A stretch of DNA of 64,000 nucleotides from Chlorobaculum limnaeum. GTDB taxonomy: Bacteria; Bacteroidota; Chlorobiia; Chlorobiales; Chlorobiaceae. Below the pieces are notes generated by a model, which saw only the letters and a list, made by a program, of their open reading frames with translations, had not been told where the DNA came from and did no database searches. The stretch covers positions 762,001 through 826,000 of the forward strand of contig NZ_CP017305.1 of NCBI RefSeq assembly GCF_001747405.1. The letters are read 5' to 3'. A program made the position numbers and the translations under genes. Positions 1,923 through 27,548 of this stretch are shown here, piece by piece; position 1 is the first letter of the stretch; the number at the start of each line of letters is the position of its first letter.

Positions 1923-2489
1923 TCACTCCATGATGGTGACGCAGTCGGCATTTTTCGGCGGAGTTTCAGGCCAGGGTTCCGCCGGATAGCCGAAAGCCGC
2001 CGCCGCGTAGGGCCGGTAGCCTTCCGGGAAGGCGATGCCGAGTTCCCGGAAAATCGCCTTGCCTTTTTCGGTGGCGTGGAGCATCATGACGGCGTTCATC
2101 CAGCAACTGCCGATGCCGAGCGACGTTGCGGCGAGCAGCATGTTCTCCGTCGCGAGCGTGCAGTCGTACTGCGCAGCGAGCGCCGAGGGGTCGCCAGAGA
2201 TGATGACGAGCATCGGAGCGTGGTAAAAGACGCTGAACCCTTCCTGCCTGGCGATCTCCCGCAGCGCCTCGACCTTCGAATCGAGGAACGCGCCCCGGCA
2301 GTGCTCTTCGAGTTGGCGGAGCAGTTCGGGATTGCGGATGACCGTGAAGTGCCACGGCTGCTGGTTCATGGCGCTTGGCGCGTGACGGGCGGCTTCGAGC
2401 ATCAGGTCGAGTTCCGGTTGGCCGACCGGATCGGGGCGGTAGGCGCGCACGCTGCGGCGCTTGAGGATCGTAGAAATGGTTTCGTTCAT
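1923..2489 (-). CDS. Nitroreductase family protein
   Basis: 188 residues, normal for the family. It starts MNETISTILKRRSVRAYRP, the typical nitroreductase N-terminus with RRSVR contacting FMN phosphate. SAMNQQPWHFTVI and the GIGSCWMNA segment near residue 130 are further hallmarks. Family members are FMN-dependent, usually dimeric oxidoreductases using NAD(P)H to reduce nitroaromatics, quinones or flavins; the physiological substrate here is unknown. The ATG at 2489 has a GGAGA sequence upstream. The gene lies 53 bp downstream of the kinase gene on the same strand and may be co-transcribed with it. Confidence 0.9.
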   Translation of the reverse strand: MNETISTILKRRSVRAYRPDPVGQPELDLMLEAARHAPSAMNQQPWHFTVIRNPELLRQLEEHCRGAFLDSKVEALREIARQEGFSVFYHAPMLVIISGDPSALAAQYDCTLATENMLLAATSLGIGSCWMNAVMMLHATEKGKAIFRELGIAFPEGYRPYAAAAFGYPAEPWPETPPKNADCVTIME

Positions 2490-2542
2490 GGCGTTCTCCG
2501 AATCTTGATTTACAACGAAAAAATGTGTCGGAGTGAATCGTT

Positions 2543-3235
2543 TCAGGGCGATCGCTTGACGTGGATGTCTTGCCTTGAAGCGGGATCGACCACCTGATAG
2601 TTCCTGTCCACATGCAGATCGGCCAGGTGCATCAGCGACCGGACGTGATGGTGCTCGCGTTCGAGCACACTCCAGCGGTAGCCGTCCGCAGGTTCCTTGC
2701 AGCGCAGCAACTGGCTGAGCCTGGTTTCGTGGTAGGTCAGGTCGATGAAGACCCTCAGGTCAATTCCTTCGGTGCGGATGGCGTACAGACCGTCGATGAC
2801 GAGCACCTGGATTTTGCTGAAATCGGTGACCAGCTCATCGACTTCGTCGGTGATGATGTCGATGCAGGGCATGGAAACCTTGCGATTCTGGCGGAAATCC
2901 TCGATGTTGCGGTGCAGCAACTCCCAGTCATACTCCTCCACGCCGACCAGCTCGTAGTTGTTGCTGATCCGGTGCTCGCGGCGGTCGAGGGGATGGACGC
3001 GGTAGTAGTTGTCGGTGTGCAGAATCTTGACGCGGATGTTCCTGGCCTTGAGCAACAGGGCCAGCGAGTGGGAGATTTCCGATTTTCCGGTTCCCGATTC
3101 GCCCGAAATGGCTACGACGAACTTGCCGCCTTCGCCTCGTTTTTCCAGCAATTCGAGGTCATAGAGCACGCGGTCGAAGATGGCTTTGGCCGCTGATTTG
3201 TGCTGATCGTTGATCAGCAGAACATCTCCCAGCAT
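2543..3235 (-). CDS. Uridine kinase/phosphoribulokinase-like P-loop kinase
   Basis: 230 residues. A Walker A motif ([20 protein letters not shown], from about residue 43) is followed by [11 protein letters not shown], the substrate-binding Asp region of uridine kinases, and [11 protein letters not shown] (Walker B type). These place it in the uridine kinase/phosphoribulokinase superfamily, which phosphorylates nucleosides or small sugars with ATP. The N-terminal 40 residues and the basic C-terminus ([10 protein letters not shown]) are not standard Udk, so substrate assignment is open. The ATG at 3235 is preceded by AGAGGT at a suitable distance. Confidence 0.8.
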
Positions 3236-3340
3236 AAATGGTTACCTCTTGATAGTGCCGGTACATTTTCATGGTTCTTTCTGAATAAAAGTTAAAACTT
3301 TTCTCCGGGAATTTTTCAATGGAAAGTATGACGCGGCGGC

Positions 3341-4906
3341 TCAGAATTGATCGGTGAGCTGCAACGGGTGTACCGTGACAGGTGACAATCGGGGGTTGTT
3401 GTCTGTGCCCGGCGGCCGGGGGAACTGACTGGCGGGGTTTTGATCCTTTGCTTCTGCTTGTTTGCGGATTCTGATGACCTTGCCCGATTTGATCCGCTTG
3501 ATGCGCAGGGCGTTTTTCGCGGTGGCGTTGACAAGAAGATAGACGTTGTGCCTGCCGACGCGGATATCGCATTTGCGGATGGCGAGGCTGTCGATGGTCA
3601 GATCGATGGTTCTGCCCGCTTTGGCTTTGGAGACTGCTCTGGTGATGATTGACGGCAGCCGATCGACGAATGAACCGATATGCACATCGAGGCGGGTGGT
3701 GATGCTGTCCCGGATTGCATCATGCAGAATGAGTTCTCCTGTGCTGATGATCGGGTTGCCGGTGTCGATGGCGTAGTCAAAATGGTCGATGCTGATGGTG
3801 TGGGTCGGTATGTCATAGCGCGGCTGGCCACTCATGATGATGTGCCCTTTCAGGTCGCGGTCTGTTATGATGGCTACCGAAAGCCCGCTTGACGAGCCGT
3901 ACGCTTCGAGGCTGTGTACGACGATGTCGTATCCCGACCGGCTGAAACTCCGGTTCATGAAGAAATCATTGAGATGCCGGTTGATGCTGGTGAAGGGCAC
4001 CAGGGCGTAGAAGTTGATATCGGAGATGGTCGAAATGCTGTCTCTGGGCGTTTGCCGGAACCGGGGCAAAGGCGTCGGTGGGCTGATGGCTGTTGTGTCG
4101 GTCAGCACCATCATGTTTGTCCTGATACGGGTGTTGCAGACGATGGCCCTTTTGTTCAGTAAAATATGGCCGCTGATGTCGTTGCAGTGGAAGCGCAGCC
4201 AGACGGGAACCGGCTTCCGGGTGAGCACGATGGGTTTCTGCAAATCTTTCCAGACATCGCTAACGGTGGGGTAAAGGCTGGCCGCTTTGTGGATTTCTGT
4301 GTCGAGCAGGGTGGTCAGGCCGCGGCTGTTACCGGTGAGCAGGGAGTCGACGTCAGCCCGGATGTTTTTCTTGAAAGGCCCTATTTTCAACACGGGCTCC
4401 TCTTCCCACCGGACGTCCACGATTTTAAAACGAGTCGTGAGACGCCAGTTGCGATCGAGCGCGATTGGTGTCGAGAAGGTGAAGACCGCTTTGGCATGCA
4501 CCGGCCAGACCAGCAGTTTTGCGAGAAACTTGCCAAGGCGGCTGTCAGTAAGCCGTGCTTCTGCCGAGACCGGAAAGGTGCAGAGCAGCTTATGCCCGTC
4601 CGAGCTGATGGTGATGTTTTCTTCTCTTGTCAAAGAGAGACTGATGCGCTCTTTGTGCTTTTTCTGCAACCACAGGTCGGCGTTCAGGAAGTTGCCGCGA
4701 ATCTTGCCGTTCAGATAGTCTGCCAGTACCGTATGTTCGATGCTGATGGGCAGGTTGAACAGCGATGACGGCTGTTCGAGTTCGACGTCGGTGGTCAGGG
4801 GGACGGGAGGCTTCGTTTTGAGGATCGTATAGCTGCGGTGCAGCCAGAAACCGAGTGCAGCCAGCAGGCTGGCCACGAGGCCGGTGACGAGAAGAGCTTT
4901 TTTCAT
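3341..4906 (-). CDS. DUF4403 family membrane-anchored protein
   Basis: 521 residues from the ATG at 4906. The N-terminus (MKKALLVTGLVASLLAALGF) is a signal anchor, followed by a long beta-rich periplasmic region. PVPLTTDVELEQPSSLFNLPISIEHTVLADYLN resembles the beginning of DUF4403 proteins, which look like lipid-binding or SMP/BPI-like beta folds; no activity is established. An in-frame TTG at 4936 with AAGGAG upstream would add 10 residues (PTSIGKKGK after the start). I prefer the ATG because it puts the Lys-Lys n-region at the start. The gene is convergent with nothing nearby and appears monocistronic. Confidence 0.7.
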   Translation of the reverse strand: MKKALLVTGLVASLLAALGFWLHRSYTILKTKPPVPLTTDVELEQPSSLFNLPISIEHTVLADYLNGKIRGNFLNADLWLQKKHKERISLSLTREENITISSDGHKLLCTFPVSAEARLTDSRLGKFLAKLLVWPVHAKAVFTFSTPIALDRNWRLTTRFKIVDVRWEEEPVLKIGPFKKNIRADVDSLLTGNSRGLTTLLDTEIHKAASLYPTVSDVWKDLQKPIVLTRKPVPVWLRFHCNDISGHILLNKRAIVCNTRIRTNMMVLTDTTAISPPTPLPRFRQTPRDSISTISDINFYALVPFTSINRHLNDFFMNRSFSRSGYDIVVHSLEAYGSSSGLSVAIITDRDLKGHIIMSGQPRYDIPTHTISIDHFDYAIDTGNPIISTGELILHDAIRDSITTRLDVHIGSFVDRLPSIITRAVSKAKAGRTIDLTIDSLAIRKCDIRVGRHNVYLLVNATAKNALRIKRIKSGKVIRIRKQAEAKDQNPASQFPRPPGTDNNPRLSPVTVHPLQLTDQF

Positions 4907-5101
4907 TTTGCCTTTTTTCCCGATGGATGTCGGCAAAAACTGGTGAACTCCTTGAGTATTGTCAAAACATAATACCGATTCTCACTGCGGCTTCAAAATG
5001 GTCGAAGCGCTTCGGTATGCGCGCAACAGGACGTGGGAAACCAAATGCGGCGGCGGGACGTTCGGGCAGAAAGCATCGATGAACTCTACTCCATTCCCTC
5101 C

Positions 5102-5659
5102 ATGAACACTTACCGTATCGCCGTGGTCGTTGGCAGCATCAGGCGCGAGTCGCTGAACCGCAGGCTTGCCGACGCGCTCACGAGGCTCGCTCCGCCCGAT
5201 TTTTCCTTCCATCACCTCCGTATCGACGACCTGCCGCTCTACAACCATGACGACGAAGAGCATCCGACCGACGCGATGCAGCGCCTGCGGCGAGAGATCG
5301 GCGAGGCTGACGGCCTTATGATCGTCACGCCGGAATACAACCGCTCGATTCCGGGCGTACTCAAGAACGCGCTCGATGTCGGCTCGCGTCCCTACGGCCA
5401 CAACGCCTGGGAGGGCAAGCCCGCCGGAATCATCGGCCTCTCGTCCGGCGCATGCGGCACGGCGATGGCCCAACAGCACCTGCGCAACATCCTCGCCGTG
5501 CTCGACATGCCAACGCTCGGCCAGCCCGAAGCCTTCATCGGCTATTACGACGGCCTGTTCGACGAGGAGGGCAACATCGGCCCGAAAAGCCGCGACTTCC
5601 TGCAAAGCTGGATGGATCGTTTCGCCGCCTGGGTGCGGCTGCATGGTGGGCGGCGATAG
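5102..5659 (+). CDS. NADPH-dependent FMN reductase family protein
   Basis: 185 residues. The start MNTYRIAVVVGSIRRESLNR gives the flavodoxin-like phosphate-binding GS.R..S loop at the extreme N-terminus; an upstream GTG frame (5033) would add 23 residues unlike the family and was rejected. TPEYNRSIPGVLKNALD is the family hallmark, followed by GIIGLSSG and LRNILAVLDM. Members reduce FMN, quinones, azo compounds or chromate with NAD(P)H. The C-terminus (SRDFLQSWMDRFAAWVRL) matters because a diverged copy of exactly this segment sits 4.3 kb downstream, beyond the TonB receptor and phytase genes. Confidence 0.9.
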   Translation: MNTYRIAVVVGSIRRESLNRRLADALTRLAPPDFSFHHLRIDDLPLYNHDDEEHPTDAMQRLRREIGEADGLMIVTPEYNRSIPGVLKNALDVGSRPYGHNAWEGKPAGIIGLSSGACGTAMAQQHLRNILAVLDMPTLGQPEAFIGYYDGLFDEEGNIGPKSRDFLQSWMDRFAAWVRLHGGRR

Positions 5660-5953
5660 CTGGTAACGCAATGCAATTTGAAGCATCACGGATTCATTGT
5701 AACATGGAGGATATGGTGTGTACCGGTGATCTGATTGCATCGCATCAAAACAGTACGTTTGCCATTGGCGCAAACCGCTGTTGTCAAGTCAGCCGAGTTG
5801 TCGGACGACGGCAAGTTGCTGTTTTTCTTGCGGTTGCCTGGTGATTGTTCACAATGATGTTTCCGGGCTTTCATGATGGCGACACAATGAGGGAGGTAAT
5901 TTCCGTAGCTGGAAAATCTGTAACCACCTCCAATTCATACACCTCGTTTCGCC

Positions 5954-8755
5954 ATGAATCGTTACCACCCTTACTCTTCGGCTGTTGCCGGTTCGTTGCT
6001 GTTGCTGGCAACGGCTGCGCAACCGTCTGTCGCATCGGCTGCTGATTCGGCCACGCAAACATCGATACCCTCAACTTCGAGAAGCATCGTGGGTACGATT
6101 GTCGATAAAAACGACAAGCTCCCTCTGCCTGGCGTGGCCGTCAGGGTCAAAGGCACGTCGCTCGGCGCAGTCACCGATCAGTCTGGACGTTACAGAATCG
6201 ACAATATCGGTTCGGATTCAGTGGTGATTTCTGTTTCCTATATCGGTTATGTCGGCGAAGAATACCCGGTCTCCATGAACCGGCTGAAATCGGCCATCCT
6301 GAACATTTCGCTGACTCCCGGTCTCGTTGTCGGTCAGGAGATCGTTGTGGTCGGCGAACAGCTCAAGGGGCAGGCCAAGGCGATTAACCAGCAGATCAAA
6401 AGCGACAATATCACCAACGTCATCGCCGCTGACCAGATCGGCAAATTTCCTGACGACAACGCTGGCGACGCGCTCAAGAGAATTCCGGGCATCAGCGTGT
6501 TCAACGATCAGGGCGAAGCGCGGTTCATCCATATCCGCGGCACGGAACCGCGATTCAATTCGGTCATGATAAACGGCGAGCGGATTCCTTCCGCAGAGGC
6601 TGAAACCCGCACCGTGCAGCTCGATCTCGTGCCCGCCGACATGCTTCAGACCATCGAGGTCAACAAAACCCTCACTCCCGACATGGACGCCGACGCCATC
6701 GGCGGATCGGTCAACCTCATCACGATGGCGCCAAGTGAGAGGCGCATCTCGATCACGGCTGGCGGCGGCGCCAACCTGATCGAAGGTTCCGGCGGGCCAA
6801 GGTCGAAGTTCTCCGGCGTGTACGGTAACCGCTTCATGGATGGCAAACTCGGCGTCGTGGTGGCCGGATCGTATGAAGACAACCATTTCGGTTCAGACGA
6901 TATCGAAGCCGAATGGAAGCGCAGCGGGACGACCGGTCAGATAAATCTCGATTCACAGCAGGTTCGTACCTATGATATCGAGCGTCTCCGCAAGAGCTTG
7001 TCCACCACGCTCGATTACCGATTCAATGAAAACCACACCCTGAAATTCTCCGGCATTTCCAACTGGCGAAATGACTGGGAGCAACGTTACAGAACGACCT
7101 ATACCAGTTTGCTTGACGATGACAACAACTATCTGGACAAGGGCGAAATCCGGATGCAGAACAAGGGCGGTACCGACAAGGATGCCCGCCTCGAAGAGCA
7201 GCGAATGATGTCGTACTCACTCGGCGGCGAGCACCATTTCGGCAAGCTCGAAGTTGACTGGCAGGCAGCGTACTCGAAGGCTTCACAAGAAAAGCCGAAC
7301 GAGCGCTACATCGACATCAGGGAGAAGAAACAGCCCTTCACGGTCGATGTTTCCGATCCAGGTAAACCTCTGGTCATCATGGACGCCTCTTCGGGAATTG
7401 CTTCGGGAGGTGACTGGAAACTGAAATCACTGACCGAAGAGCACGAATACACCGAAGATATCGACAAGGCGTTTGGTCTCGATTTCAAGTACGATCTGGC
7501 GGACAGACTGAAGCTCAAAGCTGGCGGCAAGATCAGGTACAAGAAAAAGATGAGCGATAACGATTATTATGAATACACCCCCGTCGATGAGGATGCCTTC
7601 ATGAACGAGGTGTACAACCATCTGTACAGCCCGTCGAAAAAGCACTATCTCCCTGGCGATCAGTATGTTGTCGGCTCCTATGTTGATCCCGCATTTCTTG
7701 GCAACCTCGATCTGAACAATGCAGCGCTGTTCGACAAGGCGACCGCTCTGGCCGAACTGGCTGGCAATTACACGGCGAAGGAGGATGTCAAGGCGGCCTA
7801 CGGCATGATGACCTGGGATGCTACCGACAAGCTTCGGCTGATCGGCGGCGTGCGCATGGAACACACGAGTAACCAGTACGATGCGTTCGTTTACGATGCC
7901 GATGCTGATACCCTGACGCCGGTGCATGGCGCGCGCGAGGATTACACCAACGTGTTGCCACACCTCAGCCTGCGCTACAAGCTCGACAGCTTCACCAACG
8001 TCAGGCTCGCCTACACCCATTCGCTGGCGCGTCCCAACTATTTCGATCTCGCTCCGTACCGCCAGATACTGGCCGATGACGAGGAGATTTATGTCGGCAA
8101 TCCCTCGCTCAAGGCGACGCTGTCGAAGAACTTCGACATCATGATCGACCGGTACCTCGGTTCGGTCAGCCTGGTGTCGATCGGGTATTTCCACAAATCG
8201 ATTTCGGATTTCATTGTCACCCAAAAATCGACCGACCCCGTCACCAGCTATGAGCTCTACCAGCCGGTCAACGGTGGAGACGGCAGCATCAACGGTCTGG
8301 AAGCCTCGGCGCAGTTCCAGCTTCCGTTCCTCAAAGGGCTCGGCCTGTACCTGAACTACACCTACACCGGTTCGAAGATCAAACACTTCAACATCGAAGG
8401 GCGCGACGGCGACGACCTGCCGCTGCCGGGAAGCCCGAAGCACACCTTCAACACCTCGGTCTCCTACGAAACCGGGCCGCTCGGGTTGAGACTTTCAGGC
8501 AACTATCACAGTGACTTCATCGATTCGGAAGAGGGGGCCATCGGCGAGAACGCATGGGAAGACCGCTACTACGACAGTTCATTCACGCTCGATTTCAACG
8601 GCACCTACCGCTTCAGCAAACAGGCGCAGATGTTTTTCGAGATCAGCAATCTGACCAACCAGCCGATGCGTTTCTACCAGGGCGAAAAGAAGTATGTGGC
8701 CCAGGAAGAGTGGTACGACCGCCGTTTCATGCTCGGTTTGAAGATGGACTTCTGA
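5954..8755 (+). CDS. TonB-dependent receptor with carboxypeptidase-like regulatory domain
   Basis: 933 residues. A signal peptide (about 1-29, ending SVASA) is followed by a carboxypeptidase-regulatory-like beta-sandwich (GTIVDKNDKLPLPGVAVRVK, about 46-120). The plug domain contains DNAGDALKRIPGISV and IHIRGTEPRFNSVMINGERI, and a long outer-membrane beta-barrel ends in the terminal Phe of RRFMLGLKMDF. It should take up a large ligand across the outer membrane using TonB-ExbBD energy. The next gene encodes a beta-propeller phytase; receptor-phytase pairs are a known arrangement, so phytate or its breakdown products are a plausible ligand (inference). A stem-loop lies between the two genes. Confidence 0.93.
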   Translation: MNRYHPYSSAVAGSLLLLATAAQPSVASAADSATQTSIPSTSRSIVGTIVDKNDKLPLPGVAVRVKGTSLGAVTDQSGRYRIDNIGSDSVVISVSYIGYVGEEYPVSMNRLKSAILNISLTPGLVVGQEIVVVGEQLKGQAKAINQQIKSDNITNVIAADQIGKFPDDNAGDALKRIPGISVFNDQGEARFIHIRGTEPRFNSVMINGERIPSAEAETRTVQLDLVPADMLQTIEVNKTLTPDMDADAIGGSVNLITMAPSERRISITAGGGANLIEGSGGPRSKFSGVYGNRFMDGKLGVVVAGSYEDNHFGSDDIEAEWKRSGTTGQINLDSQQVRTYDIERLRKSLSTTLDYRFNENHTLKFSGISNWRNDWEQRYRTTYTSLLDDDNNYLDKGEIRMQNKGGTDKDARLEEQRMMSYSLGGEHHFGKLEVDWQAAYSKASQEKPNERYIDIREKKQPFTVDVSDPGKPLVIMDASSGIASGGDWKLKSLTEEHEYTEDIDKAFGLDFKYDLADRLKLKAGGKIRYKKKMSDNDYYEYTPVDEDAFMNEVYNHLYSPSKKHYLPGDQYVVGSYVDPAFLGNLDLNNAALFDKATALAELAGNYTAKEDVKAAYGMMTWDATDKLRLIGGVRMEHTSNQYDAFVYDADADTLTPVHGAREDYTNVLPHLSLRYKLDSFTNVRLAYTHSLARPNYFDLAPYRQILADDEEIYVGNPSLKATLSKNFDIMIDRYLGSVSLVSIGYFHKSISDFIVTQKSTDPVTSYELYQPVNGGDGSINGLEASAQFQLPFLKGLGLYLNYTYTGSKIKHFNIEGRDGDDLPLPGSPKHTFNTSVSYETGPLGLRLSGNYHSDFIDSEEGAIGENAWEDRYYDSSFTLDFNGTYRFSKQAQMFFEISNLTNQPMRFYQGEKKYVAQEEWYDRRFMLGLKMDF

Positions 8756-8778
8756 GCGGGCACGGCAATGTTTGCAAC

Positions 8779-8812
8779 AGCCGAAGCATCGTGGCGGTGT
8801 TTCGGCTGTTCT
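8779..8812 (+). terminator. Stem-loop between TonB receptor and phytase
   Basis: ACAGCCGAA pairs with TTCGGCTGT around a 15-nt loop and is followed by the T-rich TCTTGTT. It could be a weak intrinsic terminator, or an attenuator lowering phytase expression relative to the receptor. The T tract is short, so read-through is likely. Confidence 0.5.
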
Positions 8813-8847
8813 TGTTATCATGAGTTTTCACAACCTGTCATGTCGTT

Positions 8848-9916
8848 ATGAAAAAGACTATTTTGATGATTTGTTTGTCTGTGCAGCTTTGCCTTTTCAG
8901 GCTTGCGCCGGTGGTATCCGCTGAAGCCGAAACGCCGCTCGAACCGGTTGCCATTACTGGCAAGGTTCGGTACGATTCGGATGATCCGGCCATCTGGGTC
9001 AACCGGGCCGACCCCTCGAAAAGCCTCGTTCTCGGCACTGACAAACATGAGGATGGTGCTCTGTACGTGTTCGATCTTGCGGGCAGGGTCATCGAAGAGA
9101 AGTGCGTTCGCGGGCTGGTTCGTCCGAACAATGTCGATGTTGAGTATGGCCTCATGTTGCAGGGCAAGCCGGTCGATATTGCCGCCGTTACCGAGCGGGG
9201 GCGGCGTATGGTTCGCCTCTACCGTTTGCCCGACATGACGCCGCTCGATAACGGCGGCATCCGGGTTTTCGACGGCGAGGCGCTCGATGAGCCGATGGGC
9301 ATCGCCCTCTACAAGCGCAGCCGCGACGGGAATATCTACCTGATCGTCAGCAGGAAAGAGGGGCCGAAAAAAGGGGTACCTTTGGGAATACCTGCTGCGC
9401 GATGACGGCGCGGGCAGGGTGATGGCGACAAAGGTTCGCGCTTTCGGCGCATGGAGGGGCGTGAAAGAGATCGAGGCGGTCGCAGTCGATGACGGTAACG
9501 CTACGGTCTATTACTCCGATGAACGGTTCGGCATCAGGAAATACTCTGCCGATCCCGCCGCCGTCGATGCAGGCAAGGAGCTTGCTGTGTTCGGGCAGTC
9601 GGGATTCGCCGCCGACCGTGAAGGCATTGCCGTGACCCGGAATGCCGAAGGCGGCACGCTGGTGCTGGTTTCCGACCAGAGCGGCGGTGCGCTCAGAATC
9701 TACAGCTCGACGAAAGTGGACGAAAATCGCTATCGTTTCATCACCTCGGTGCCATATCGTGCAACGGAAACCGACGGCCTCGACCTCTCGACGGAAATCC
9801 GGACGCCGGAGTTTCCCGAAGGAGTGCTCGTCGCCATGTCGGACGACCGCACCTTCCAGTTTTACTCGCTCGGCGAAGTGCTGAAGCGGCTCGGGGAAAG
9901 AGTTGACGGGGAGTGA
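8848..9916 (+). pseudogene. Beta-propeller phytase (3-phytase), interrupted by a one-base frameshift
   Basis: The first part (8848-9376) begins with a signal peptide (MKKTILMICLSVQLCLFRLA) and phytase motifs DDPAIWVN, GTDKHEDGALYVFDL and RPNNVDVEYG. The second part (9377-9916) continues in the +1 frame with YLWEYLLRDDGAG, DREGIAVTR and TDGLDLST. Dropping one G at 9373-9376 (A6G4 tract) restores a continuous protein of about 355 residues, the normal size for a six-bladed beta-propeller phytase, which releases phosphate from phytate using calcium. As read, the first frame ends at 9405 after about 185 residues. Sequencing error, recent mutation or transcript slippage in the homopolymer are all possible. 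It pairs with the TonB receptor upstream. Confidence 0.85.
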
Positions 9917-9923
9917 TGCCCGG

Positions 9924-10002
9924 CAGCCGGGAGTTTTTGCAGGGGTGGATGGATCGCTTTGCCAGGTGGGTGAGGCTGAACGCCAATCCGCGCAACGCCT
10001 GA
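9924..10002 (+). pseudogene. 3'-end remnant of an FMN reductase gene
   Basis: Read in one frame this segment encodes SREFLQGWMDRFARWVRLNA and ends NPRNA-stop. The C-terminus of the intact FMN reductase (5102-5659) is SRDFLQSWMDRFAAWVRLHG-GRR. Most base differences fall at third codon positions, so this copy evolved as coding sequence before it was cut off from the rest of its gene. It has no start and lies immediately after the phytase stop. Confidence 0.75.
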
Positions 10003-10005
10003 ACG

Positions 10006-11190
10006 TCACGGCTTTTTCTCCGCCAGCAAATCGTTCAGGTTGTTTCTGATTGTTATTGTCGTTGGATGCTTTGGGCCGAGAGACTTTTCCAGAATCGCGA
10101 GAGCGCGTCGGAAGAGCGGTTCAGCGTCGTCATACTTGCCCTGTGCGTAGAGCAGATTCGCCAGATTGTTCAGGCGCGTGGCAACGTTGGGATGATTGGG
10201 GCCGAGGGTTTTTTCGCCGATAGCGAGAGCGCGTCGGTAAAGCGGTTCAGCGTCGGCGTAGTTGCCCTGAGCTTTGAGTAAAAGCGCCAGATTGTTTAGC
10301 CATGTGGCAACGTCGGGATGATTGGGGCCGAGCGTCTTTTCGCCGATATCGATGGCGCGTCGGTAGAGCGGTTCGGCGTCGCGGTAGTTGCCCTGAGCAT
10401 AGAGTAACAACGCCAGATTGTTCCGGCTGGCAGCAACATCGGGATGATTGGGGCCAAGAGTCTTTTCACCGATAGTGAGAGCGCGTCGGAAGAGCGGTTC
10501 GGCTTCGTCGTATCGGCCCATTTTCCAGAGTATCGTTGCATGGGCATCGAGATAGAACGGGTTCTCATCTTCGATGGCGGCGGCTTTTTTGTAGTAGCGT
10601 TCGGCTTCGGGGTAGTTGATTTGGAGTTCGTAGGTCTGGCCTTGCAGATAATGCACCTTTGCAAGGTCTTGCTGCAAATCGTTGTGCTTGTCACGGAACT
10701 CGGCCAGCAGGCGATTGACCTCGTCGTAATTGAAGTTGTCTCTGGCGGCTTCGATTTTTGGAATCAGCGCTTTCAGTTCAGCGCCGACGGAGCCTTGCTG
10801 AAACAGTTTTTGCGCGTCGGCATCCGCCTGCACAACCTTGTCGAGGAAGTTTGAGAGGTCTTCCCAGAATTTCGCCCGGCTGTAAGCATCGAGCTGCTCG
10901 ACATCCTTGCCACCATGCGCGGCGCGAACCAGTTTCCTGAACGCGGGATTCTCTTTGGTCGCCTCCCAGTCATGTTGCAGGATGATCGATCTGTACTCGG
11001 TCAGTTGCGTGGGATTCAGGCCTTGATAAAGATTGCCCCCAGAGACGATAATTCCGGTGTTGTGGTCAGGGTTGATGGTAATGCCTTGCTGTTTCTTCTT
11101 ATCGCCCAGCCAGCCGAACATGCCGGTTACGATTGCGCCGATGATCGTCAAAACGCCACCGATAATCGCTACTGTGACCTCTGTTGTCAT
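10006..11190 (-). CDS. Membrane-anchored TPR protein (kinesin light chain-type repeats)
   Basis: 394 residues from the ATG at 11190 (MTTEVTVAIIGGVLTIIGAI), whose first 25 residues form one transmembrane segment. A longer frame reaching 11865 runs through proB on the same strand and is composed of Arg/His-rich non-protein, so it was rejected. After a helical region (about 60-200) come four 42-residue TPR units with the consensus G.Y.DAEPL(Y/F)RRAL.IGEKTLGPNHPDVA. Such repeats form protein-interaction superhelices. No enzymatic domain is visible, so it is probably a scaffold. The stop lies 4 bp from the FMN reductase remnant on the other strand. Confidence 0.85.
   Translation of the reverse strand: MTTEVTVAIIGGVLTIIGAIVTGMFGWLGDKKKQQGITINPDHNTGIIVSGGNLYQGLNPTQLTEYRSIILQHDWEATKENPAFRKLVRAAHGGKDVEQLDAYSRAKFWEDLSNFLDKVVQADADAQKLFQQGSVGAELKALIPKIEAARDNFNYDEVNRLLAEFRDKHNDLQQDLAKVHYLQGQTYELQINYPEAERYYKKAAAIEDENPFYLDAHATILWKMGRYDEAEPLFRRALTIGEKTLGPNHPDVAASRNNLALLLYAQGNYRDAEPLYRRAIDIGEKTLGPNHPDVATWLNNLALLLKAQGNYADAEPLYRRALAIGEKTLGPNHPNVATRLNNLANLLYAQGKYDDAEPLFRRALAILEKSLGPKHPTTITIRNNLNDLLAEKKP
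10075..10578. repeat. Four tandem 126-bp units inside the TPR gene
   Basis: Units begin at 10075, 10201, 10327 and 10453, each starting GCC(G/A)AG and spaced exactly 126 bp (42 codons). The last unit diverges toward its end. The high similarity between units makes copy number change by slippage or recombination plausible. Confidence 0.85.
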
Positions 11191-11287
11191 CGTTACGCGG
11201 GATGGGGGTGAAACTGCGAAATTGTATGCCGCAAGATAATGCGGAAATACTGCGCGGACAACAGGTTGGGGGAGATTGCGGAGGTTT

Positions 11288-11432: not shown

Positions 11433-12518
11433 CTACGGCACGATATACAGATGATCGTAGTGAATGACCGGCTTGTGGCCTTTCTGACCTGCCGTCGCGC
11501 GGGCTTTTTCGGCGGTGCAGGAGGCCATGCCGTAGCCAATGACGGTGCCGTCTTCCGAGCAGATGCGGATGACGTCGCCGCGCTTGAACGAGCCTTCGAC
11601 GCCGGTGATGCCGACGGGCAAGAGGCTCGTGGCTCGCTCGTCGGAGGTGAGGGCGTCCTTTGCGCCCTGGTTGATGATGACGGCGCCTTTTTCGAGTCCT
11701 TCGCTGAGCGCGATCCAGCGCTTTCGGCTCTGCTTCGGCTTCTGGGCGATAAACTTCGTGCCGGTTCTGCCGCCGTGCGCGATGGTCTGCAAAATGCCGG
11801 GGGTGGTGCCGTTGGCGATGTGCACGGTAATGCCGAGGCGAGAGAGTTTGTGCGCGATGGTGCACTTGGTGAGCATTCCGCCGCGTCCGAACTCCGATTT
11901 GCCGGGGCGGATGTACTGGCTGAAGTTCTTCGAGCCGGGGTCGATCTCCTCGATCACCGGGTTGCCCTCAGTCAGCGTGTCGAACAGGCCATCGACGTTC
12001 GAGAGAATGATGTGCGCGTCAACCTGCAACATCGAGGCGATGAGGCCGGAGAGCTCGTCGTTGTCGGTGAACATCAGCTCCGTCACCGCCACGGCGTCGT
12101 TCTCGTTGACGATGGGCACGATCTTCTGCGCGAGCAGCGCCTCGAAACAGGTGCGCATGTTGAGGTAGTGCTGCCGGTCGCGGAAGTCTCCTTTGGTGAC
12201 GAGTAGCTGCGCGCCGGTCATGCCATGCTTTTCGAAGCGGTCGTTGTAGGCGTTGATGAGCCGGATCTGCCCGGTGGCGGCGAGCACTTGGCGTGTCTCG
12301 ACCGGCGTCAGGTTGCCGGTGAGCGACACGATGCCGCGCCCTGCACCGACCGCGCCGGAAGTGACGAGAATGACTTCGACGCCGCCCTGCATGAGCGAGG
12401 CGATCTGCGCGGTCAGGCTGTCGAGAATCGCCGGATCGAGCTTGCCGTCGCGGCCCGTGATGACGTTGGTGCCGACCTTGACGACGATGCGCCGGTAAAC
12501 CGGATGTTGTTGACTCAT
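11433..12518 (-). CDS. proB: Glutamate 5-kinase
   Basis: 361 residues. The N-terminal amino-acid-kinase domain shows VVKVGTNVIT, VTSGAVGAGRG, PIVNENDAV and FTDNDELSGLIA. IHIANGT-type segments and a C-terminal PUA-like domain (about 275-361: KGAVIINQGAKDAL, KRGDVIRICS) complete the long ProB architecture. It phosphorylates glutamate with ATP, the first and usually feedback-controlled step of proline synthesis. The gene sits 12 bp downstream of the SMR transporter gene on the same strand, suggesting co-transcription, though the two functions are unrelated. Confidence 0.95.
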   Translation of the reverse strand: MSQQHPVYRRIVVKVGTNVITGRDGKLDPAILDSLTAQIASLMQGGVEVILVTSGAVGAGRGIVSLTGNLTPVETRQVLAATGQIRLINAYNDRFEKHGMTGAQLLVTKGDFRDRQHYLNMRTCFEALLAQKIVPIVNENDAVAVTELMFTDNDELSGLIASMLQVDAHIILSNVDGLFDTLTEGNPVIEEIDPGSKNFSQYIRPGKSEFGRGGMLTKCTIAHKLSRLGITVHIANGTTPGILQTIAHGGRTGTKFIAQKPKQSRKRWIALSEGLEKGAVIINQGAKDALTSDERATSLLPVGITGVEGSFKRGDVIRICSEDGTVIGYGMASCTAEKARATAGQKGHKPVIHYDHLYIVP

Positions 12519-25540: not shown

Positions 25541-27372
<1,832 letters not shown>

Positions 27373-27548
27373 TGATTTTCGACGCTCACGAGGAAGCGCC
27401 TTTTGACAAGTCACGATAACCAAATTCACCCTGATTTCCAAGGATGGCCGCCGGACGCACTCCTTGAGAAAGCGGGGGTTTTGTGTAAATTACGGCCTCG
27501 TTTGACGAAGAGGCTTCCATTCAGCTCCAATCCTGTATCATCGGCTCA

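Follow-up and report, generated by a model that had tools for sequence, protein, structure and literature searches.

The window is a stretch of 64,000 nucleotides from a complete genome of 2,797,276 bases that belongs to the Chlorobiaceae. Near its left end, an intact gene for an FMN reductase is followed by genes for a TonB-dependent receptor and a beta-propeller phytase. Behind the phytase, the 3' end of an FMN reductase gene occurs once more. The features of this locus are collected in Table 1. The 4.3 kb between the two FMN copies, here called the cassette, holds the receptor and the phytase only, and no recombinase or integrase gene.

On the DUF4403 side, the gene order is the same in genomes G003, G019, G015, G004, G001 and G002. 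On the other side, the TPR-repeat gene stands tail-to-tail with the FMN fragment, with its stop (10006-10008) 3 nt from the stop of the fragment. The tail-to-tail arrangement is likewise found in G020. A search of the cassette leader against Rfam gave no match, and an RNA element in the leader was dropped as a candidate.

Table 1 Features of the locus from the DUF4403 gene to proB, with positions in the window.
Feature	Positions	Strand	Remarks
DUF4403 gene	3341..4936	-	PF14356, 340 bits; resident left flank, divergent from FMN
Intact NADPH-dependent FMN reductase	5102..5659	+	Pfam FMN_red PF03358, 136 bits; own-clade body
FMN last 30 nt, cassette-linked tail WVRLHGGRR*	5630..5659	+	Identical in G003
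Cassette intergenic leader	5660..5953	+	91.5% identical to G003; GC low, 0.476
TonB-dependent receptor, carboxypeptidase-regulatory-like N-terminal domain	5954..8755	+	TIGR01782, PF13715, PF07715 (plug), PF00593 (barrel)
Beta-propeller phytase gene, frameshifted at 9367-9376	8848..9916	+	PF02333 in both halves
Stranded 3' end of second FMN reductase copy, ~27 codons	9918..10002	+	Homology to FMN ends
TPR-repeat protein gene, resident right flank	10006..11199	-	Start approximate, inferred from G020 homology
proB (glutamate 5-kinase), conserved right anchor	11433..12518	-	Homology across relatives

A TonB receptor beside a phytase is a common module in the Bacteroidota, and already known. Among 80 relatives of the receptor, 51 have a phytase directly downstream and 6 have one upstream, on the other strand, and the relatives paired in this way are mostly Bacteroidota. 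The receptor in the window scores 510 bits on TIGR01782 (cut-off 310) and has both the plug and the barrel domain. It is 95% identical in amino acids to its counterpart in G003 (LUZT01000011.1), the sole other genome of the genus that carries the cassette.

In Flavobacterium johnsoniae, the pair Fjoh_1368/Fjoh_1367 is induced by phosphate depletion (PMC8115612). There too, a TonB-dependent transporter adjoins a PF02333 phytase. Because that pair responds to phosphate depletion, the receptor and phytase described here likely serve the uptake of phosphorylated substrates. Unlike in F. johnsoniae, the phytase in the window is frameshifted, and a response of the pair to phosphate depletion is putative.

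An earlier note on this DNA treated the phytase gene as intact. As assembled, its frame is interrupted: there are two ORFs, 8848-9405 and 9419-9916, each of which matches PF02333 (64 and 35 bits, cut-off 21). In G003 the gene is whole, scores 112 bits, and encodes a protein that matches PDB 1cvm/1poo with an E of about 1e-26. In the A6G4 run at 9367-9376, the six A's are followed in the window by one G more than in G003. This is either a real mutation, which makes the gene a pseudogene, or an assembly error. If it is real, the uptake of phosphorylated substrates would be impaired in this genome. Programmed -1 frameshifting at A6G is out, as the downstream frame, read by hand, requires +1 and not -1.

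The central observation of the earlier note, that the FMN 3' end recurs behind the receptor and phytase on the same strand as the intact gene, is borne out. When every 63-mer of the window is compared with the intact FMN end, the fragment at 9919 matches at 44/63 positions and the runner-up at 32/63, on a background of 16.3 (SD 3.6). This rules out chance similarity. The repeat had been placed at 9924-10002; the homology in fact begins at about 9918, and the fragment, read in frame from 9916, gives MPGSREFLQGWMDRFARWVRLNANPRNA*. In a protein search of the whole 2.80 Mb genome, nothing but the fragment comes up as a second match to FMN (genome positions 771913-771987, E 1.7e-5).

The intact end and the fragment differ at 19 positions, of which 6, 2 and 11 are first, second and third codon positions. 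The earlier note had these differences mostly at third positions; the excess is there, but it is modest (binomial p 0.024).

The fragment had also been predicted to match the 3' ends of FMN genes in relatives without the cassette, and it resembles several of these more than it does the window's own intact end. Over a core of 63 nt, on which all these affinities rest since the fragment is short, its identity is 88.9% with G001 (56/63), 87.3% with G004, 82.5% with G019, and 69.8% with the window's own end. The fragment is nearer the FMN ends of other species than the one next door, and is therefore not a local copy. A target-site duplication is out for the same reason. Nor does it derive from a gene family unrelated to FMN reductase, as it aligns to FMN ends from across the genus. 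These similarities show the scrap behind the phytase to be the end of another FMN allele, which has kept its connection to the resident right flank.

The intact gene is itself of mixed descent. Its body is nearest to those of G004 and G020, at about 86% of nucleotides, with G017 also among the closest. Its last 30 nt are unlike those of all cassette-less genomes compared. In G003 and its sister G019, 238 of the 240 FMN nucleotides before the tail are identical. After GTGCGGCTG this ends abruptly, and the G003 gene changes to the tail that it has in common with the window. Given this near-identity and sudden switch, both carriers keep the FMN body of their own clade and have no more than the very end in common. 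The alignments thereby show a hybrid gene, with an own-clade body and cassette-linked last codons. The earlier note held that the newcomer brought its own FMN end. The foreign tail agrees with this, but only about the last 30 nt look imported, and the body does not.

Among 21 genomes of the genus, the receptor and phytase occur only in the window's genome and in G003. The other members, as the earlier note had foreseen, have one uninterrupted FMN gene at the locus, which abuts the right flank or other cargo. Its 3' neighbour is the TPR gene in G020, G019 and G001, proB in G015 and G002, and other cargo in G004, G014 and G012. What lies between FMN and proB differs by species: one or more TPR genes, AAA_14/DUF4143, a pyruvate-kinase-like gene with a histidine phosphatase, NUDIX, or nothing (cargo loci L055, L058, L061 and L060). 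This shows the interval between the FMN reductase gene and proB to be a variable locus across the genus.

For the earlier note, an intact gene and a fragment together in relatives without the cassette would have counted against its reading. This is seen only in G017, where a degenerate FMN 3' remnant (L032 2182-2268) lies between two TPR-repeat stretches and adjoins proB. G017 is a MAG of 460 contigs, and two full FMN copies sit on its other contigs; the case is uninformative. Truncated FMN ends in G053, G064, G076 and G039 were candidates for further scars but were dropped, as they look like decaying genes or uninformative remnants. The genomes of G053, G064 and G076 hold no second FMN match, and the truncated ends in G076 and G039 are similar to an FMN subfamily that is more distant.

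In G051 (L044 5769-9861), a gene for an Nramp-family transporter is flanked on both sides by FMN copies. The two copies share a strand and are some 3 kb apart, and the transporter gene runs the other way. A comparable course for the window's lineage would be a tandem duplication of the FMN gene, then an insertion that separated the two copies, the second of which decayed. For the locus studied here such a course is improbable: the fragment is closer to the FMN ends of other species than to the supposed sister copy, it starts at the same codon right at the phytase stop in two genomes, and the first ~158 FMN codons have left no trace. The clean single FMN gene of the relatives already disfavours it.

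G003 carries the same scar as the window. Both have the same final 30 nt of FMN and the cassette in full, and in both the joint of phytase and FMN fragment reads phytase stop, TGCC, fragment. Behind the phytase stop, the fragment of G003 runs AGTAATGCCACGTCAACCGCGACTTCCTGC...; it has lost a short internal stretch, and its tail resembles that of G015. The tail of the window's fragment is like that of G019. The right flanks differ as well: that of the window is as in G019 and G020, with the TPR gene, and that of G003 is as in G015, without it. A single founding event, followed by exchange of flanks, would explain the shared joint and the differing right flanks.

Because G003 has the scar too, the founding insertion predates the window's genome, and the stranding of the FMN end goes back to a single event in an ancestor, shared or donor. 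The earlier note proposed an import of about 4.3 kb that stranded the resident end. The outline of this stands, but it is not new here, as joint and fragment are also in G003. That the window's genome itself took in the cassette is unproven.

In a tree of rpoB and gyrB, G003 pairs with G019, and then with G015. The window's genome and G003 as one clade are rejected on the same genes (AU p 6e-5). At third codon positions of core genes, the window and G003 are 77% (rpoB), 76% (gyrB), 78% (proB) and 75.5% (def) identical. The phytase comes to 68-74%, and the receptor to 75-92% along its length, with the highest stretch, 89-92%, in its first ~1.2 kb. The FMN body stands at 66.5% and DUF4403 at 87%. 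To judge by these identities, recent exchange between the two lineages seems confined to the first ~1.2 kb of the receptor gene. The phytase and the last two thirds of the receptor have diverged like core genes, and so a recent import from the G003 lineage is not supported.

The DUF4403 region (window 2400-5150) is much closer to G003 and G019 than core genes are, with 87% of third positions identical against 76-77%. This is a sign of a separate exchange tract beside the cassette.

A cassette that was already at this locus in the ancestor of both carriers would also have diverged at the pace of core genes, and would show identical joints on both sides in both genomes. It would then have been lost repeatedly via the ~60-85 bp FMN repeats, with no import here; as direct repeats, these would permit a loss without a scar, restoring one FMN gene with the resident tail. 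The rpoB and gyrB tree, however, demands at least four independent losses for this, versus two gains, and no cassette remnant was recognised at the loci of the cassette-less relatives. We consider such ancestral presence possible, though short of probable. Counted as events, the history is two gains, or a single gain with four or more losses. Put as origins, it is an old transfer, or presence in the ancestor followed by at least that number of losses. In each case, both are possible.

The explanation we hold to be probable is an old insertion of the phosphate-scavenging receptor-phytase pair at the FMN 3' end, via homology-facilitated illegitimate recombination. In PMC3240628, this process has one homologous end, and the other end is joined at minimal matching sequence. 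As there, foreign genes have here been added beside a shared gene. The difference from what is described there is that the present case is inferred from an old scar, whose ends were not observed forming and whose donor was not found. No genome with FMN, TonB receptor and phytase in a row and no fragment turned up, and the four other TonB-phytase pairs in the Chlorobiaceae (G026, G044, G047 and G048) do not adjoin an FMN gene.

Under this old insertion, DNA from a relative carrying FMN-TonB-phytase would have entered a shared or donor ancestor. On the left, it would have been joined by a homologous crossover inside FMN, and the hybrid FMN gene and the empty sites of the relatives are consistent with one such end inside a shared gene. 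On the right, the end of the phytase gene, just past its stop, would have been joined non-homologously to codon ~159 of the resident FMN gene, with no more than 3-4 bases matching. The phytase stop abuts FMN codon ~159 in both carriers, with about GCC in common. Thereafter, homologous recombination that involved the FMN body, the flanks and the FMN repeat of ~60-85 bp would have moved or reshaped the cassette between lineages. Recombination between the FMN repeats could remove it without trace. In the window's genome, the phytase would later have acquired, or been read with, its frameshift.

Prophage e14 sits at icd in E. coli, where it supplies a replacement gene end and the displaced one comes to lie beyond the prophage. 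The FMN locus is similar: the body of the host gene is kept, its end is replaced by a new 3' end from the incomer, and the old end is found at the far side. It is dissimilar in that the window has no integrase or phage genes at this locus, only two cargo genes, and site specificity is putative. Integration into the FMN 3' end in this style, with an integrase since lost, is unlikely. It would account for the switch to cassette-linked sequence at the extreme FMN 3' end in both carriers, inside the final ~30 nt of the gene in the window and the final ~60 nt in G003, and for the ~60-nt repeated core that brackets the cassette. However, own-clade FMN recombination that erases everything upstream of an unalignable tail gives the same pattern, the 4.3 kb lack a recombinase gene, and no other element with such ends was found.

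One could go further and propose that the FMN 3' end is a recurrent docking site in the Chlorobiaceae, free of integrases, where short repeated gene ends let cargo in by RecA-type or circle-mediated recombination. This would fit because the cargo between FMN and proB differs by species, and because FMN copies bracket the Nramp gene in G051. We give it little credence. If true, the gene would be repaired at each entry and exit would be scarless.

The empty sites, the sister genome and the scar common to both carriers make the locus a cleanly readable case of accessory nutrient genes gained by green sulfur bacteria without mobile-element genes. It is a fairly ordinary gene exchange: the known mechanism of such exchanges is unchanged, and no new kind of system is involved.

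Elsewhere in the window, at 27272-27378 on the minus strand, there is a TPP riboswitch (RF00059, 66.6 bits).
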